64,000 nt of DNA from Pyramidobacter porci (GTDB lineage: Bacteria > Synergistota > Synergistia > Synergistales > Dethiosulfovibrionaceae), in the NCBI RefSeq assembly GCF_009695745.1, contig NZ_VUNH01000001.1, forward strand, positions 248,001 through 312,000. The letters run 5' to 3'. Under the pieces are notes generated by a model. The model saw only the letters and a program-made list of their open reading frames with translations. It was not told the DNA's origin and searched no databases. The position numbers were made by a program, and so were the translations under genes. Below are positions 14,212-25,127 of this stretch, piece by piece (positions within the stretch are counted from its first letter, which is position 1; every line of letters starts with the position of its first letter).

Positions 14212-17200
14212 CTATCGCCGCGAAGCGCGAAGCAGACGCCTCATTTCCTCCATGTTCGCCCTCAATTCCGCCTGCATCGCCTTCAGTTCGGCGATCTCCT
14301 GGCTCTGCAGCGCGTTCGTTTCGGCCTGCTGGACGTTTGTCCGTTTCAGCGAGGCCACCTGCGCCTGCAATTCGGCGTTCTCCTTCTGCATCACGTAGAC
14401 GCTGTTCATGGGACCGGAACGATAACGCGCGGGGATCTTTTCCTTGTCCTCCTTGCGCCCGATCTTCCACGTCAGTCCGGCGTTGGCCATCGACTCGCCG
14501 TGGTGCGAGACCGACACGCCGGCGTGCACCATGAAGTCTTCCTTCACGTAATGCGCAAAGCCGAGCGCCAAGGCGTACTCGCCCTTGTAGGCTCCGAATC
14601 CGGCCATCAGCTGGCTGGGTTCGACGGGGTCGTAGTGCATCGGTTTCAGGGCGCTCAAAGCCGAGCCGAGCGCGCCGGTGGTCTTGATGCTGCCTCTCAG
14701 TTCGCCCATCTGGTTGTAGACGTTGCCGAAGTTGTTGTAGACGTTGGTGAACTGCTTGTCCACCGCGCTGAGGGCATCGCCGACGTTGTGGTACGTGCCG
14801 CCGCGGATGTTGTAGGTGGGAGCGGAGACGGAACCGTCGACGTTGATCGTGGAGCCGCCGCCGAAGTGATTGGAGACGCTTGACGAGACGCCCCACAGCT
14901 GCGAGCCGTTGACGGCGTCGGCGCTGGTCTGGCTGACTTCGCCCTTGGCGACGTTGACGACTTTGTTGCCGGTGGCGTCGAAGCCTTTGGCGGTGACTTT
15001 GCCGGTGAAGGTGGGGGCGTCGACGACGCCGATCTTGAGGGCTCCGGAGTCGTTGCTCAGCTTGATGTTGCTGCCCGTCTTGAAGTTGAGGACGTTGTCG
15101 TTCTTGCTGACGGTCTTCACTTTCACGCCGTCGATCTGGGCGTCCCAACTCTTCAACGTGTCGGCGGAGACAGCGGCAATTTTGTCGTCCACGGCTTTAA
15201 GCTGATCTTCGGTAGCCGCCTGGCCGGAGGTGATAGTGAGAGGGTTCCAGGTTGTATTGGTCAGGCCGTTGATCGTGCCTTTGCCGTCCTTGTTGATCGT
15301 GAGCTTGTTTGTCGTCCCCGTGACGTCGAATTTCAGCTCGTTCTTGAGGGCGACGACGAGTTTCTTCTCGCCGGAGGTCTCGGTAACGACTTTGGTCTCG
15401 GTGTTGACTCCGTCGCCGGCGACATGCACGGATTCGCCCAGTTTTCTGCTGACGGTGCCGCTGTCGTCGGCCGAGAGGGCGAAGCCCTTGTCCGTCAGAT
15501 TGGAACTGGCGTTCTCGATCGCTTTCTTCACGTCGCCGATGTTGGCCGCATTGGTGTCGACATCTCCGCCGCTTCTCACGTTGGTGATCTGCAGACCGCC
15601 CATGTTCACTTCTGTCTTGGTGATCTTGGGGCCGCCGGTGATCGTCAGGCCGCTGCTGTTAAGCAGAGTATCGCCGATGGTCAGACTGCCGGCGTTTGTC
15701 AGGTTCAGGTTCTGCGCCAGCTGGATCTTCAGCTTGCCGTCGTCGTTGTTCACGCCGATGTTGGCGTCCGTCAGTTTGGTCGCGTCCGCGCCGCCGACGA
15801 TGTCGAGCGTGCTGTTCAGTTTCTTCTTGATGACTTTGCTCGCGTCGCTCTGGCCGTCGTCGCCGGCGTACTTCATGCCGTCGTCCAGCGTCGCCACGTC
15901 GTGCGTGTTGCCATCCTTATCTTCGTACACGATACGGGTCAGCGTCGTCCCCGGCGCGCCGTCCACTCCCGGAGCTCCTTCGTGCACATGGATATCCGCA
16001 GACGCCCCGTCTTTCCCGTTCAGCCCGATATGCCCGTCCACGCCGTTCTGTCCGGCGGGGCCTTCGCTCCAGATCGTCACGCCGTCCTTGCCGTTGGCTC
16101 CGGCGACGCCGATTTTGCCGTCTTTGCCGTCCTTGCCCACCGTGATACTTTCCGCTTTCAGGTTCTTGTTCAGCAGGATGTCGATGGTGGTGTTGCCGTC
16201 AGAGTCCTGAGCGATCTTGGTCTTGAGGTTCTCGCCGGAGTACTTGTCGTCGTCCTCGGCGCCTGCACCCTGGATCTTCACCGTGCTGCCCAGTTTGTTC
16301 GTCACATCTGCGCCGCTGTTGGCGCCAAATATTAGGCCTTTAGCCGTAATACCGGTAGTTGCCTTGTACAGCTGGCTGCCGTTAACTGCATCCGTAGAAC
16401 TGGAATCTACCGCGCCGTCAGCTACGTTGACAATCTTCTGGCTGTTGGCGTTCAGGCCATCTTTATTGGCATAGGTCTTGCCGTTGATGGTCAGACTGCC
16501 TTCTGCACCCAGATTCAGATCTTTTGCCAGACGGACTTTCAGGTTGTTGGAACCGTCCGACACCACGCCGATGTTGTCGTCATCCGTCAGCTTGGATGCG
16601 TCGGCGATTCCGCCGATCACATTCACCTGTTCGTTCAGATGTTTCTTGATCACCGCCCCCGTGTCTCCGCCGTACTTCATGCCGTCGTCCAGCGTCGCCA
16701 CGTCGTGCGTGTTGCCATCCTTATCTTCGTACACGATACGGGTCAGCGTCGTCCCCGGCGCGCCGTCCACTCCCGGAGCTCCTTCATGCACATGGATATC
16801 CGCAGACGCCCCGTCTTTCCCGTTCAGCCCGATATGCCCGTCCGCGCCATCCTGCCCCGCAGGGCCTTCGCTCCAGATCGTCACGCCGTCCTTGCCATTG
16901 GCTCCGGCGACTCCGATCTTGCCGTCTTTGCCGTCCTTGCCGACCGTAATGGTTTCCGACTTCAGGTTCTTGTCCAACCCTACAAGCAGATTGCCATTGC
17001 TGTCCACGATCGTTCTGACATTGGACGTATCGTATTCAGTGTCTGCCTTCGCACCGGTCCCCTTAATGGTCATGATGCCATTCAGCTTCTTCGTGACTTC
17101 TCCCGTGTTACCCGCGAATTTCAGACCGTCGTCCATTGTCGCGACCTGATGGTCGCCCTTCTCATCCGTGTAGTAGATGCGGGTCATCTCGGTGGCGCTC

Positions 17201-20200
17201 AGGTTCTTCGCCGGATCGAGGCTGGCGGGGCCGGCATTGATGCCGATGTCAGCATGAGCGTTCTTGCCGTCGGAACCCTTCGGGCCGGTCAGGCCGATCT
17301 TGCCTTCCGTTCCATCTGCGCCGTCCTTGGCATAGATGGTGACGCCGTCTTTGCCGTCTTCACCCTTGATGCTGATCCCGTCCTTGCCATGGATCACAAC
17401 GGATTGACCGTCTTTGCCGTTGATACCGATGGAACCGTCTTTGCCGTCGGCCCCAGCCTTGCCCAGTACGAGATCGTCCTTGACGTTGACCTTGTACGGA
17501 TTGGCAGCCGTGCCTTCGCCTTCGACAGTCGTATTATGGCCGTCTTTCAGGATCGTCTTGCTGTTGGCAATCTGTGCAGTCAACTGGCCATAGTTGACGG
17601 CATCGGTCGGATCCGAGCCGTTAGCCACGTTGGCGATCTTCTGGTCGTTGGCGTTCAGTCCGGCGTTCGTCACGTAGGTCTTGCCGTTGATGGTCAGGCC
17701 GCCGTTGTTGATCACGGTCGCGCCCGTGGTTACGCTGCCGGTCGCGCCAAGATCGATGTCTTTCTTCAGTTTTACGTTCAGCTGCGTTCCATCCGAAGCC
17801 ACGCCGATATTGTTTTCGGTCAGATCGGCGGTTGCGCCGCCTTTGATGTTCAACTGCTCGCCCAGCTTCTTGTTGATCTTCGCGCCGGAGTCGCCACCGA
17901 AATCAAGGCCTTTGTCGATCGTGTTGTTGATGTTCGTAATCGACGAATTATTGCTGATGTCGATGGTCTCGCCCAACTTCGGGTCGGCTTTCACGGTTAC
18001 AACGGGGATGGAATCGGTTCCGGCCACTTCGACGGCGATTTTGTCCGTCTCGCCCTTGAACTGGATCTCGGGCACGCCGCTCTTGCCGATGGTAAGGGTC
18101 TTGGTATTGGCGGACGTGCCGTCGCTCACCTTGAACTTGCCGTCGATGTTGGTCACCGGATTGCTGGTGGTGTTGTTGATCTGGTTGATGACGTCGCCGG
18201 TGATGTTCTGCACGAGTTTGGTCTTGTCGATGCCGTAGGTGACTTTCGTGCCCGCCAGGCCGACGGTCATCGTGTCGTCGGCCGTCGCGAACTCGACGGT
18301 CGGGGCCGTAGCTCCGCCCAGCGCCACGTTGTTCGTGGTGCCGCCAGCTTTGAGGTCGAAACCGGCTTTCAGCGCGTTCACCGTCGTGTTGTTGCTGATG
18401 TCGATGGTCTCGCCCAGCTTCGGGTCGGCTTTCACGGTTACGGTCGCTCCGTCGGCGGCGTTGGCTACCTCGACGGCGATCTTGTCCGTCTCGCCTTTGA
18501 ACTGGATGTTCTGTTTGGCCGTGCCGCCGAGGGTGATGTCCTGTTTCGTGCCCGCCTCGTTGCTGACGGTGAAGCCGCCCTTGAGGTTGCTGATGTCGGT
18601 GGTGTGATTGTTCACCGTGGTGGTCAGGGTGCTGATGTCGGTCTTGTTCTGCTGGACGGTGGCGTTGTTGGTGATGGCGGTGTTCAGCTCTGTGGCGTTG
18701 ACTTTGTACTTCACGCCGTTGCTGCCCACTTCCGACTCGATCAGGCTGCCGTCGCCCTCGAACTTGATGGTCTGCGTTCCCGTTTTGTCCGCAGTGATCG
18801 TCTGCGTGCCGGTTCCGGCGTCGGCGATCTTGAATTTCGCTTCGACGTTGTTGATCACGGTGGAGCTGTTGTTGATGGTATTTCCCAGCGCCGCACCATC
18901 AAGGCCGATGGTCAGACCGCCGGCGGTTACCTTCGTGGTGACGCCGTCAGCGCCGGTCACGACCAGCGGGGTGACGGAATCGATCACTTTCGTGCCCGGC
19001 GTGCTCTCCGCGTCCTGGATCGTCCATTTGGCGGCGGCGCCGATGGTGGTGGAAATGTTGTCGATCTTCGTCTTGGTGGCGTCGTCCAGGCCGATGGTCA
19101 TCTTCTTGGCGGCGCTGTCGTACTCCGTTTCCACGTAGTTCTTCCCGGCGAATTCCAGCGTATTTCCCGCCTGGATCGCGCCTTGATTCGCACCCGCCTT
19201 AACATTGAAGCCTGCTTGCAGGTTGGTAATATCCGTCTTATTCTGGTTTACTGTCGTGTTGTTGGTGATGGCGTTGTTCAGCGCCGTCGTGTCGAGATTG
19301 TACTTCACGCCGTCGGCGGTCATCGCAGACTTGATGTAAGTTCCGTCGCCTTCGAACTTGACGGTCGGTTCGGTGTCTTTGGCGAGCGTCACGGTTTTCT
19401 GAGCGCCGCTTTCCGCGGTCACGCCGAACTTGGCGCTGATGTTGATGACCGGGTTGGTCGTGGTGTTGTTGATCTGGTTGATCACGTCGCCGGTGATGTT
19501 CTGCACGAGTTTGGTCTTGTCGATGCCGTAGGTGACTTTCGTGCCCGCCAGGCCGACGGTCATCGTGTCGTCGGTCGTCGCGAACTCGACGGTCGGCTTC
19601 GTGCCGCCCAGGGCGACGTTCGACGTCGTAGTCCCGGCTTTGAGGTCGAAACCTCCCTGCAGTTTGGTGATGTTGGTGGCATTGTTGGTGATGTTGCCGG
19701 CGTTGGCGGTCACGCGATTATCCAGGTTGGTGATCGCGCTGTTGTTGCTGATGTCGATGTTGGTCCCGAGGTTCGGATTGGCCGATACGGTCACTTTCGC
19801 GCCGTCGGCCGCGTTGACCACCGTCACGTCGATCTTGTTGGCTTCGCCCACGAACTGGATGTTCTGTTTGGTCGTTCCGCCGAGGGTGATGGTCTGTTTC
19901 GCGCCTGTCGCGCCGCTGACGGTGAAGCCGCCCTGCAACGCAGTGATGTCCGTGGAGTTCTGCTCGACTTTGTTGTTCACGGCTTTTAGCTGAGCCACGT
20001 TGACAGCGTCGCTGTCTTCTTTTCCGGCCGCGACGTTGACGATCTGGCGGGTACCCGCAGCACTACCGATGGAGAGCGCGCCGAGGTCGCCCTTCACGGT
20101 CGCTTGCACATTGGCGTCGTCGTTGAGATAGACATCGTTAGGAGCCGCCGTGCCACGGTCGGCTGTGCTGGAGGAACCGATTGCAACGCTGTTGCCGACA

Positions 20201-23200
20201 CTTGCATTAGCACCGTTTCCAAGAGCCACAACACCGCGAACGTACGCCTTCGCGCCGTTACCCAAAGCAACGGATTCACTTCCGCTCTGCGAGTTGGCGC
20301 CGATCGCGACGCCGCTGTTGCCGCTTTGTGATTTAAGGCCAATGGCGACGCCGTTGTTCGTCTCGACCTGTGACTCGGAACCGATGGCAATGGAGTCGCT
20401 TCCTTTTGCTTTACTCGATACGCCGATCGCAATGGCCTTTGCTCCTGTAGCCCCGTCGTTGTTCCAGTTGGTGCTGGCAGGGGAGGCGCTGTCATCTGCG
20501 TTGACGGAAAAATAGTGCACGCCGGCCGCCGTCTCTACCATTGCGGCCACGGCCTTGAGCTGAGCCACGTTGACGGCGTCGGTGTTCTCCGTGCCGGCCG
20601 CGACGCCGGTGATCTGGCGGTTAAACGGGGAGGCCCAAGATTCGTTGCCGCCTGTCGTCCGCCCGACGGCAACGGCGCTTCTTGTGTATGCAGCGGTATC
20701 CTGCACTGCTGTATCGCTGCCCATATAGACCGAGGTTTTGTCGGCCACGGGATCGCGGTCGGCGACGCTGTAGCTGCCCAGGGCCACAGCATCCGTTTTG
20801 TTGCTCACGGCCCGTATGCCTAGCGCGACAGAGGCAATTACCTCTCCGGGATGATCCTTGACTCCGGCAATAGCATCTGTTCCAATAGCAATGGAATCGT
20901 TTCCCAAAGCGCCCTGATACCGGTAATCCTGCCCTTCAGTCATGCGGCCGATCGAAATGCCTCCCATTCCGGCCGCGTGCGAATCGAGTCCAAAGGCCAC
21001 CGAAGAAGCGCCTATGGCACGGCTCTTCCGGCCGACGGCTATAGCCGAGTCTCCCGTAGCGCCGTCGTTGTTCCAGTTGGTGCCGTCGGGAGAAGCGCTG
21101 TCGTTAGCGCTGACGGAGAAATAGTGCACACCGCCGCCAGACGCCGTGCCAATGGCCGCTTTCAGCTGGGCCACGTTGACAGCGTCCGTATCCGAGGAAC
21201 CGGCCGCCACGTTGATGATCTGCCGGCGGACGGAGGAACTGCCCACGCTGACCGCGCCGTCCGTGGCCTTGGTGGCGTTGATGGCGTTCTGCTGCGCGGT
21301 ACCTGCGGTAGAAGGGATATATACCGAAATCCCTGACGGGTCCCAGTTGTTACGGTCCGCCTTGCTGCCCGCGCCCAAGGCCACGCCGCCCTCCGCCGTT
21401 GCCGAGGCTTGATACCCCAACGCGGACGCTTTTTGCACGTTGGCATTGGCCTCCGCGCCGATCACCGTAGCGTATTGGCTGGAGCCGGTAGCTTCCGCTT
21501 GGGCGCCGACGACGACCACTTTCTGTTGGCTTCCCTCGGTCTTGGCCTGATATCCCAGCGCCATGCTCTGAACACCCGTCACGCTGGCTTCCTGCCCGAT
21601 GGCAATCGGAGCTCCGTCATTACCGGAAGAATTGGTCGCCGTCGCGTTTTTGCCGATGGCAATGCCGCCTTCTTGGGCGTCAACTTTGGCGGAATTACCG
21701 ATGGCGATGCCGCCGCCTCCTTCTGTAGAACTCGATGTCACGCTGGCGGAGGGGCCGATGGCCAGACCGTCGCCGCCGACATTGCTGCCTGTGCCGATAG
21801 CAATCGCATTGGCATGGGCAGAGCTAGCGATGGTCGCCCCCTTGCCGAAAGCGATCATGCCGCCGGTCTGGTTGGATTCGACCTTCGCGCCGCTGCCGAT
21901 GGCGATGCTGTCAGCTCCGCGGGTCACAGTGCCGGAAGCGCCGATAGCGATGTTGTTTCCCAGCGCCGACAGATCCGTGGAGGCTTGATAGCCGATCACG
22001 ACGTCCCCTGTTCCCCGGGCCTGGGCGCTGACACCGGCAGCCAGCGCATTGCCGCCGGTAGCTCCGCTGTTGTCATAGTTGGTATCGGAAGCCGGAGTAG
22101 TGGAATTAACGCTGTAATCATGGACTCCTGTAATTCTGTAATTCTGCCCGTTGATCTTCAAATCCGTCAGTTCCGCGTCTGCGGTATAAGCGGCGCCATT
22201 GTTGGCGATAACCGAAGCTCCCACCGGAATGTCAAATTGCCCCTCCGTAACCACGTCTCGGAATTTCAATTTACCGTCCGTATCAATATATTGTTCCTTT
22301 ACGACCGCTCTGTTGGCAAAGCGGATTTTACGGTCTTCCCCGTTCGTGCCGCCGACACCTGTGACATTAACGGTCCCGGGCACATCTGCGCCGCCGTTCG
22401 TATCCAGAGCGATCGTCCCGCCTCCGGCAATCGGAGCTACGTCGATTTTTTTCAGGTCGTCTTCATGAAGCTTCAAATCGTTTTCTTTCAGCTCATTGAT
22501 GATATTGTTGAACTGATGCATGGTCATGCTGCTCAAAGGCGCGTTGGGATCTACGACCTCCGTCGCCCAATAGCTGTAATATTTTTTGCTGACAGGGTCC
22601 TGCGCGGTCATCAGCACTTCGTTGTTGAAACCGAAAACCTTACCGCGGTAGATATCATTCCCTGCGGTGTCATTCGTAAACACTCCGAGAAGAACTTCCC
22701 AGGCATTTGTCCCCTTATTCCAATGCCTGATCGCATACAATGCATCATTGGGCACCACCTTGCCATTCAAGCGGTAGGTATTGGTGTCCCCTATGTCTTT
22801 GGTTACTTCTTTAAAGTGATTATTGAACAAATCGGGGTTGATTTTTCCGGTGACGGGATTTCTTGTATCCCCCACCCATTTCCCGTCAATCTCCATAACA
22901 TAGCCGGAATCAGTAAGCGGCCTGTACGCACTGCTGTTTACGCCGCCCGCATAGGCCCCCGCCTCGCCTTTATTCAGACTCTTCTCATTCAAGGTCGTTA
23001 CCCCGGCGTAAGAAATAAGAACCTGGGTATCGGAAAGCAAGCCGCCGTCGTCTGCGTTCGCGTCGATCTTATAGGTGCGGATCAGATTCGGAGTCGTCGA
23101 GAGAGAATGCCGGTAATCCTGCTCGACGAAAATGGTATAGCCGTCGCGGACGTAGTACCATTCCTGCAATCCTCCAGAGACCTGCATGGCCGTATAGTTA

Positions 23201-23520
23201 TGTACGGCTCCGCTGGGATCGGCAAATTGCTTTGTCATCTCCCCCGGCACCGGTTGGTTCGGACCTATATAAAGAGCAACATACTGCCCCTGCATGGTAA
23301 TTTCATTATCACCCGCGCCGCCCTGTACGTAGGCTCCAGCCGGCATAATCCCCGCTTTTCCGGTCGTCAGCATAAGCGCCAGAAGCAGAGCCGTCCCCGT
23401 CTTCACAACCCCGCCAGGTATATTGCCGCTCGTCGTTTTGCCGCCTCGTTTCACCAACTCGGAAACAACCACATGGCAATTCCTTACCTTGCTCCAGATG
23501 ACCTTGTAAATCTTATTCAT
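14212..23520 (-). CDS. Giant trimeric autotransporter adhesin (YadA-like)
   Basis: A surface adhesin of about 3,102 residues. It begins with an ESPR-type extended signal ([20 protein letters not shown]) and a hydrophobic core (about 40-60). A non-repetitive beta-rich N-terminal region follows to about 480. YadA head repeats (SIAIGS-, GVALG- and VVIGY-type) occupy about 480-1155 in three blocks, each ending in a stalk motif such as [19 protein letters not shown] (near 775, 975 and 1170). A long coiled stalk runs to about 2,945 with Gly-rich collagen-like G-K-D-G inserts near 2,020-2,080, 2,190-2,280 and 2,460-2,550. The C-terminal YadA anchor is about 2,950-3,025 ([18 protein letters not shown] to GLTWKIGR). 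Unusually, about 75 more residues follow the anchor, ending in a coiled coil. The ATG at 23520 has AAGGAGA upstream; an ATG at 23547 would precede the signal. Confidence 0.95.
15867..16140 (-). repeat. Internal near-identical repeat of adhesin, copy 2 (274 bp)
   Basis: This segment of the adhesin gene is nearly identical to 16671-16944 at a constant offset of 804 bases, without insertions or deletions. It encodes a module of collagen-like glycine triplets followed by [20 protein letters not shown]. It suggests recent duplication or gene conversion and could recombine to shorten or lengthen the stalk. Confidence 0.85.
16671..16944 (-). repeat. Internal near-identical repeat of adhesin, copy 1 (274 bp)
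   Basis: Partner of the 15867-16140 repeat. Differences are scattered single bases only (for example the codons around 16845-16865, where the sister copy reads differently). It encodes the same collagen-like stalk module. Confidence 0.85.
18168..18303 (-). repeat. Internal near-identical stalk repeat of adhesin, copy 2 (136 bp)
   Basis: Matches 19461-19596 at an offset of 1,293 bases with few substitutions. It encodes the stalk segment [20 protein letters not shown] and the following [20 protein letters not shown]. Confidence 0.8.
19461..19596 (-). repeat. Internal near-identical stalk repeat of adhesin, copy 1 (136 bp)
   Basis: Partner of 18168-18303. The protein differs at only one or two residues across the segment, for example EFATTDDTM here against EFATADDTM in the sister copy. 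Confidence 0.8.
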
Positions 23521-23554
23521 AAATGCACTCTCCTTAGGCAATATCATAAAATAA

Positions 23555-23585
23555 GCCGAAGAATCACGTTCTTCGGCCGTTTTTT
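23555..23585. terminator. Terminator-like hairpin in the adhesin leader
   Basis: A perfect 9-bp stem, GCCGAAGAA (23555-23563) with TTCTTCGGC (23569-23577), and a 5-base loop. On the adhesin (minus) strand it is followed by TTATTTTAT, a credible U-run, 35 bases before the adhesin ATG. On the plus strand it is followed by CGTTTTTT. In adhesin transcription it would act as an intrinsic attenuator. Confidence 0.65.
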
Positions 23586-23605
23586 CCGCAAGGTTTCGTT
23601 CGCAT
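23564..23605 (-). CDS. Possible 13-residue leader peptide of the adhesin gene
   Basis: A short ORF ([13 protein letters not shown]) within the adhesin 5' leader. It has a purine-rich GGGAGAGGAG directly upstream of its ATG. Its TGA stop codon occupies the loop of the terminator-like hairpin at 23555-23577, so a ribosome reaching the stop would melt the hairpin's 5' arm. That geometry resembles translation-coupled attenuators. The ORF is very short, and chance cannot be excluded; the coding claim rests on position and ribosome-binding site only. Confidence 0.35.
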
Positions 23606-23632
23606 GGCTCCTCTCCCGTCGCAAATTTTTCC

Positions 23633-23671
23633 GCTGCTTTCTCAGGACTCTCCTGATGCAGCCCTTTGGGC
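23633..23671 (-). promoter_or_regulatory. Nested hairpins in the adhesin 5' leader
   Basis: In the adhesin leader, CAGGA/TCCTG (23643-23655, 3-base loop) sits inside GCTGC/GCAGC (23633-23637 with 23658-23662). A small GCCC/GGGC hairpin (23661-23671) adjoins it. Together they form a compact structure 30 to 70 bases upstream of the leader ORF. Confidence 0.45.
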
Positions 23672-23775
23672 TTGTTTCAAATTTCTTCGAAGAATGGGAG
23701 CCGTCGTTCATAATTTCGTTGAATGCAAACTGATAACTCTCGTATATTCAAATTGTAATTAAATTGTAGACGGAT

Positions 23776-23804
23776 ATCATATCATCCCTCTCTCCGCGCG
23801 TAAA
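23776..23804 (-). promoter_or_regulatory. Putative promoter of the adhesin gene
   Basis: Read on the minus strand: TTTACG (-35, 23804-23799), a 17-base spacer and TATGAT (-10, 23781-23776). Transcription would start near 23769, giving a leader of about 250 bases before the adhesin ATG at 23520, which is unusually long for this window. Confidence 0.45.
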
Positions 23805-23905
23805 GATATCTCACTGTTTATTCTTTCCCTTCCGCGCTCGGCCGTGCAGACTGGAACGACTCTGCATAGCGGCGGATGTCCGAAGGGAACCTGCCGAGCT
23901 CGAAA

Positions 23906-23952
23906 AAGAAGGCGCCGGACGTTTTCGAAATGAAAATGTCCGGCGCCTTCTT
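23906..23952. terminator. Strong hairpin upstream of the divergent promoters
   Basis: A 15-bp stem, AAGAAGGCGCCGGAC (23906-23920) with GTCCGGCGCCTTCTT (23938-23952), extended by GTTTTC/GAAAAT pairing. On the minus strand a TTCTTTTTC run follows. It sits between two divergent genes, where no gene end calls for a terminator. Confidence 0.6.
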
Positions 23953-24137: not shown

Positions 24138-25127
24138 ATGACGACGAGAGACGAAGTGCTGGGGATCCTTATGCGTTCGCAGGGGCGATACGTTTCGGGC
24201 GAAGAGCTGGCCCGCCGCCTTTCGCTCAGCCGCAACGCGGTCTGGCGGGCGGTGAAGTCGCTGCGGGACGAAGGCTGCTCTATCGACGCCGCGACGCGGC
24301 GCGGCTACTGCCTGACGGGCACGCCCGACCTGCTGTCGCCGCAGGCGGTCGAAAAGCATTTTTCGCGCCGGGCCCCTTGCTGGGACGTCGAAATCCGCAA
24401 AACCGTGACCAGCACCAACACGGTGCTCAAGGAAATGGCCGAAGGCGGCGCGCCGGAGGGGAAGATCCTCGTCGCCGTGGAGCAGACGGCCGGAAAAGGG
24501 CGCATGAACCGCCGCTTTTATTCCCCCGCCGGCAGCGGCGTTTACATGAGCCTGCTGCTGCGCCCGTCGTGCGGGCCTGCGGAATCGCTGTACATCACCA
24601 CGGCGGCCGCGGTCGCCGTGGCGGAGGCTGTCGAGAGCGTCGCGGGGGGGGAAGTACGGATCAAATGGGTCAACGACGTCTATCTGCGCGGCAAAAAAGC
24701 GTGCGGCATCCTCACCGAAGCGGCTTTCGACATGGAGACGAAACGCCTCGCCTACGCGGTGCTCGGCATCGGCGTCAACATGCGCCCGCCCGCGGGGGGC
24801 TTCCCCGACGAGTTGGAGCCGATCGTGACCAGCGTCTTCGGCGAAGCGGATTACGATCCCGAGAAGCGCAACCGGATCGTGGCCGAAATCGTCGAACGCT
24901 TCTGGCGCTTCTACGAAAATCTGGGCGAAAAACCGTTCCTGAAAGGCTATCGGGACCGTTCGTTCCTGACGGGCAAGGACGTTTACGTCGTCAGCGGGGC
25001 GGAGCGCCGCCCGGCGCGCGCGCTGGACATCGACGACGAGTTCCGGCTGCACGTGCGCTACGAGGACAGCGCCGACGAATATCTGCAGTCCGGCGAGGTT
25101 TCCGTGAAGCCCCGCGGCACAGCATAA
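24138..25127 (+). CDS. birA: Bifunctional biotin-protein ligase / biotin operon repressor
   Basis: It activates biotin to biotinyl-AMP and attaches it to biotin carrier proteins, and represses biotin genes through an N-terminal DNA-binding domain. It is 329 residues, the bifunctional (class II) length. A winged helix-turn-helix covers about 1-60 (EELARRLSLSRNAVWRAVKS). The catalytic domain has TSTNTVLKE, the nucleotide-binding loop EQTAGKGRMNRRFYSP (the usual GRGRRGRxW is altered to GKGRMNRRF) and IKWVNDVYL with the conserved lysine. The C-terminal SH3-like domain is SFLTGKDVYVVSG. A run of eight G (24644-24651) lies inside the gene. The ATG follows AGGAGAG. The likely client in this window is a carrier partner for the carboxyltransferase at 54017-55528. 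Confidence 0.95.
   Translation: MTTRDEVLGILMRSQGRYVSGEELARRLSLSRNAVWRAVKSLRDEGCSIDAATRRGYCLTGTPDLLSPQAVEKHFSRRAPCWDVEIRKTVTSTNTVLKEMAEGGAPEGKILVAVEQTAGKGRMNRRFYSPAGSGVYMSLLLRPSCGPAESLYITTAAAVAVAEAVESVAGGEVRIKWVNDVYLRGKKACGILTEAAFDMETKRLAYAVLGIGVNMRPPAGGFPDELEPIVTSVFGEADYDPEKRNRIVAEIVERFWRFYENLGEKPFLKGYRDRSFLTGKDVYVVSGAERRPARALDIDDEFRLHVRYEDSADEYLQSGEVSVKPRGTA

Follow-up and report, generated by a model that had tools for sequence, protein, structure and literature searches.

Background

Leader-peptide attenuators of the trp and his type have a short open reading frame (ORF) ahead of a terminator hairpin. The product of the uspA1 gene is a trimeric autotransporter; that of icsA is not. A few mucosal pathogens are known to have slippery tracts in the promoters of adhesin genes. 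In Neisseria, the promoters of porA, fetA and opc contain a homopolymer between the -35 and -10 elements (PMC2791445). In Moraxella catarrhalis, the mRNA level of uspA1 varies with how long a G(n) tract upstream of the gene is (PMC7302503), and the Shigella autotransporter gene icsA is attenuated by RnaG (PMC5394118).

Here, we analysed a stretch of 64,000 nucleotides from Pyramidobacter porci (the window), in which a translation-coupled attenuator had been proposed ahead of an adhesin gene (the original prediction). For phase variation or trimeric autotransporter adhesins (TAAs) in this lineage, we found nothing relevant in the literature searched, most of it outside subscription journals. 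We think it likely that the promoter of this gene belongs to a family of TAA promoters of the phase-variation type and that the hairpin in its leader acts as a partial-termination brake, the ORF in the leader being incidental.

The adhesin gene and its leader

The adhesin gene lies on the minus strand (14212..23520) and encodes a TAA with an ESPR signal peptide, a YadA head, a stalk and a C-terminal YadA anchor, all of which score above the Pfam cut-offs. Its start is most likely the ATG at 23520, where the ESPR begins and which is preceded by a conserved TAAGGAG ribosome-binding site (within TAAGGAGAG, 23529..23536, minus strand). The in-frame ATG at 23547 is an unlikely start, since both the TAAGGAG site and the beginning of the ESPR fit 23520.

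The promoter and the leader of about 250 bases that had been predicted are both present. The promoter has the form TC-TTTACG / CGCGGAGAGAGGGATGA / TATGAT (23776..23806, minus strand), in other words TTTACG-17-TATGAT at 23804-23776 with a TG before the -10, making it an extended -10. The transcription start inferred from the -10 lies at about 23769, which gives a transcribed leader of about 249 bases up to the ATG at 23520 (23521..23769, minus strand). The 17 bases between the two boxes (23782..23798, minus strand) are a degenerate G tract, the interrupted counterpart of the poly-G tract of the homologs.

The leader carries a 13-codon ORF (23564..23605, minus strand), which is preceded by GGGAGAGGAG. 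Its stop codon TGA falls in the loop of an intrinsic-terminator-like hairpin, GCCGAAGAA-CGTGA-TTCTTCGGC, at 23577-23555 on the same strand (9 pairs, -12.2 kcal/mol). Behind the hairpin follows the U-rich tail TTATTTTAT, so that hairpin and tail together span 23577-23546, and from the end of the stem to the adhesin ATG there are 34 bases. In the region that separates the adhesin promoter from the divergent gene at 24138 we also see a hairpin of 20 pairs (23908-23950), which is present at the orthologous loci too and is probably a terminator or boundary.

Homologs of the leader

The leader was found at five loci: in the window and at two loci (a and b) in each of the genomes G010 and G011, which come from two further species of this genus. 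At each of the five, the gene immediately downstream codes for a TAA whose signal peptide is of the ESPR type. As the G010a and G011a leaders are alike, four distinct sequences were compared. All four share the promoter boxes and the segment TAATTACAATTTGAAT. A hairpin stem of at least 7 pairs, the U-rich tail behind it and the ribosome-binding site are likewise conserved in each.

In our set of 188 phylum genomes, genes with an ESPR are confined to this genus, and one further ESPR gene (L020/L060) does not have this leader. We were not able to find convincing leader homologs outside the genus in the same 188 genomes, using blastn and a covariance model of the hairpin module, nor any in plasmids or phages. 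A scan of genome contigs with the leader pattern gave 12 matches in unrelated genomes, which we took as chance, and a scan of viral contigs gave none. Two leaders of non-ESPR TAA genes (L129 and L132) share (AT)TACAATT(T/C)GAAT with the window leader but lack the hairpin.

A hairpin of this quality is not expected by chance. On a terminator score of the d'Aubenton-Carafa type (our own implementation) it reaches 13.8, a value attained by 0 of 150 dinucleotide shuffles of the leader (best shuffle 5.4). All four distinct leaders score as terminators (13.8, 23.9, 14.5 and 8.9). Read on the plus strand, the hairpin is followed by T-runs too, yet its score is below zero. The predicted hairpin with its U-rich tail is not confined to the window but recurs at each of the five loci. 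The covariance model scores these five at 100-109 bits, and no other match exceeds 28.3 bits. The module is absent from the other TAA leaders tested with this model. By sequence and score, the element qualifies as an intrinsic terminator ahead of the adhesin gene, and premature termination at it is plausible, the chances being about even.

A family of poly-G promoters

At the four other leader loci the spacer contains a pure G tract (G9, G8, G9 and G13, with spacer lengths of 16, 15, 13 and 18, respectively), whereas the longest G run in the window spacer is 3, so that the window copy itself has no homopolymer. This poly-G spacer of the homologs, overlooked in the original prediction, is the feature with the best support from sequence comparison.

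To define the family we listed the G runs of at least 8 in the genus and read their surroundings; tract counts come from pattern searches. A common box, TCTTTAC(A/G)C(G)n followed by TATGnT or similar, lies ahead of many TAA genes. In a pattern search of the 188 phylum genomes, the G-tract form of the box was found in this genus only, with isolated matches elsewhere that carry no G tract. The genes behind the copies that we read are TAAs, as judged by translated head repeats or anchor ends together with the positions of YadA anchors, of which there are 17 places in G011, 11 in G010 and 5 in the genome of the window. A homopolymer of G5 to G13 stands between the -35 and -10 in 14 copies of the relatives and in one other gene of the window genome, a TAA gene on contig 10 (G10, spacer 16). 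Taking TGnTATGnT or its nearest match as the -10, we measured spacers of 11 (two copies), 13, 14 (two), 15 (three), 16 (five), 17 and 18 bases in 15 copies; the -35 and -10 elements are consensus matches, two members have weak -10s (TAAGCT and TAAACT) and one has only G5.

In G011, nine of the 12 G or C tracts of at least 8 bases mark the 5' end of a TAA gene. Seven of them belong to the standard box, another is a C10 upstream of a TAA gene (L135), and the last is a G8 within a coding start. If tracts were placed uniformly, about 0.04 would be expected there (binomial probability about 5e-21, which is overstated since related promoters are not independent). A putatively phase-variable promoter family is well supported by sequence. 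The copies of the box include six further TAA promoters of G011 and the one on contig 10 of the window genome (L129-L136). Two of the TAA genes in G011 (L131 and L134, at G011:C1:779345 and 2326130) have near-identical G8 promoters and broken frames of 1074 and 370 codons, with the anchor further on in another frame. In the window genome, tracts of G10 and G9 on contigs 4 and 11 (L093 and L098) do not belong to TAA promoters and may be part of other control regions.

As assembled, the tract length in this promoter family varies between closely related genomes. Around one locus, G010 and G011 are 99.77% identical over 11.7 kb, and the three indels in this stretch are all in homopolymers: G9/G8 in the TAA promoter of this locus, G9/G7 at a distance of 7.7 kb, and T8/T7. 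Between the two genomes the promoter tract is G9/G8 at one locus, G9/G13 at another and equal at three others; assembly error may contribute, as homopolymer lengths are the most error-prone part of an assembly and single-G differences could be artefacts. At L058:10519, a G9 in G010 corresponds to a G7 in G011 within an otherwise near-identical stretch.

One TAA gene has a G tract not in its promoter but in its coding start (L182, G011:C1 at about 1686829; L183, G010:C120 at about 8440). In G011 the tract is G8 and out of frame, with a stop after 17 codons, whereas in the G010 ortholog it is G11 and in frame, leaving more than 2,200 codons open. This is probably a second, translational form of phase variation. 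In the window genome, interrupted G-rich stretches are found at the window adhesin and at the TAA genes in L172 and L174, and the stretch in L174 coincides in position with the coding tract that G010 and G011 have. It looks as if switching had been lost in these three genes and they had been fixed in the on state. For the window copy, we do not claim phase variation: since its tract is interrupted by point changes and its spacer is 17 bases long, it is probably locked on.

Alternative explanations for the leader

According to the original prediction, a ribosome that finishes the leader ORF keeps the hairpin from forming, so that transcription continues into the adhesin gene. The geometry of the window suits this idea, with a ribosome-binding motif, a 13-codon ORF, a stop in the loop and a terminator-like hairpin. 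The ORF and the TGA in the loop do exist, and the nested hairpin proposed at 23633-23671 can be drawn, but all three fail to be conserved in the homologs. In G010a and G011a the ORF has 23 codons and runs through the hairpin, its stop overlapping the ribosome-binding site of the adhesin gene; in G011b it encodes MRTKT and ends after 5 codons, and in G010b there is no such ORF. Among the five leader loci, only the window has the stop in the loop. The suggested comparison of the leader across relatives has thus upheld the hairpin, while the ORF turned out to be lost or altered, and we did not find a conserved leader ORF with a conserved stop relative to the terminator. Since 26% of shuffled leaders hold an ATG ORF of 4-40 codons behind a Shine-Dalgarno-like motif, the ORF is not beyond chance, and it has no regulatory codon run; the original prediction, too, saw no obvious run of one amino acid in it. 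We rejected the leader-peptide attenuator on grounds of conservation: the ORF is probably incidental, a coupling of termination to it is unlikely, and the mechanism as a whole, its logic being unsupported, seems to us highly improbable.

Another possibility is control independent of the ORF: the leader might be a conserved attenuator or a translational switch, with the state of the hairpin or of the ribosome-binding site set by alternative base pairing or by the action of a protein, a ligand or an antisense RNA. The conservation of the hairpin, the tail and the ribosome-binding site agrees with this. In a common fold proposed by RNAalifold, 4 of the 51 pairs are compensatory and two of these lie near the ribosome-binding site, which is suggestive only, as the fold was derived from the same four sequences in which the pairs were counted. 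The window and G011a leaders fold better than their shuffles (z of -2.2 and -3.5), but the G011b and G010b leaders do not. For leaders truncated at the U tract, the computed probability of the terminator hairpin is about 1 in three of the four, while in G010b a longer pairing beats it. Sequestration of the ribosome-binding site, hinted at by the two compensatory pairs, is not favoured by most single-sequence folds, the site being open in two of the four leaders in single-sequence ensembles. A candidate antiterminator pairing of 6-7 bases can be found in all four leaders; it is not favoured and, by our own estimate for the search space, no more frequent than chance expects. A comparison with Rfam found no family at gathering score anywhere in the window, and no hit over the leader proper that was better than chance. 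Taken together, such a switch appears unlikely, though a good deal less so than the ORF-coupled one. Potentially, the hairpin could also be only a stabiliser of the mRNA 5' end or a relic, with the conservation of the leader simply reflecting the recent kinship of the loci. The window and G011 share about 91% identity in the DNA beside the adhesin gene, which makes the 88% identity in the leader of the ortholog unremarkable, and we do not accept it as proof of selection. Moreover, the hairpins that precede the start in other TAA leaders are different ones and have no U tail. On the other hand, at the second-copy loci of G010 and G011 the divergence is about 17% in the bin with the promoter and leader and about 3% in the 500 bases of the gene that follow (L059:13500-14000 vs L057), and still the boxes, the hairpin, the tail and the ribosome-binding site persist. 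Because of this difference between control region and adjoining coding start, the former would have been exchanged or be fast-diverging, suggesting an exchange of control regions between TAA loci. A mere stabiliser or relic is possible, but we have some doubts about it.

Proposed mechanism

We return to the reading that we prefer, a phase-variation promoter family with a hairpin brake at some of its members. The G tract sits between a -35-like TTTAC(A/G) and an extended -10 (about TGnTATGnT). Replication slippage would change the length of the tract and with it the spacer (11-18 bases in the copies seen), and the spacer would set the strength of the promoter; as a result, each cell would express a random subset of the adhesins. 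The promoter family and the differences in tract length can be read directly from the genomes, and from them we infer slippage in living cells and its effect on transcription. In the window copy, point changes broke the tract at a spacer of 17, which would have fixed the gene in the on state.

Transcription would then cross the leader of about 249 bases, which ends in the terminator-like hairpin found only at ESPR-type members. Here, the conservation of the hairpin and the loss of the ORF are again comparisons of sequence, and termination at the hairpin is what we infer from them. The hairpin may cause partial premature termination, as a brake that is either constant or cued in some other way, so a passive or otherwise cued attenuator is possible. 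More speculatively, the genes of a whole TAA repertoire in one genus could be switched individually by the poly-G box that they have in common, with a coding G tract taking this role in at least one of them and the ESPR-type members carrying a conserved leader attenuator in addition. Random switching and regulated termination would then act in series on one and the same set of surface proteins, which we put forward as a tentative idea.

If a common promoter box does serve a TAA repertoire, the slippery-tract device would have arisen or spread independently in another group. Tract length would then predict which adhesins each cell displays, and one genome sequence would be a mere snapshot of adhesin expression.

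Comparison with known systems

The trp and his attenuators resemble the window in having a short ORF before a terminator hairpin; they differ in that here neither the ORF nor the position of its stop is conserved and there is no regulatory codon run. Like icsA with RnaG, the window has an autotransporter gene in whose leader transcription may end prematurely, but the attenuation of icsA needs an antisense RNA, whereas in the window we see a predicted hairpin alone.

The promoters come closer to described cases. As in porA, fetA and opc, a G or C tract sets the distance between the -35 and -10 of a gene for an outer-membrane protein. Unlike in those genes, one tract-bearing box is common to many genes of a single protein family, it is known here from sequence, and the window copy is without the tract. 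With uspA1 the family shares a TAA gene with an upstream G tract; there, however, a single gene is concerned, the box and the sequence differ, and the phylum is, we assume, unrelated. In summary, the TAA promoter family looks like a phase-variable repertoire of the kind known from porA, opc and uspA1.
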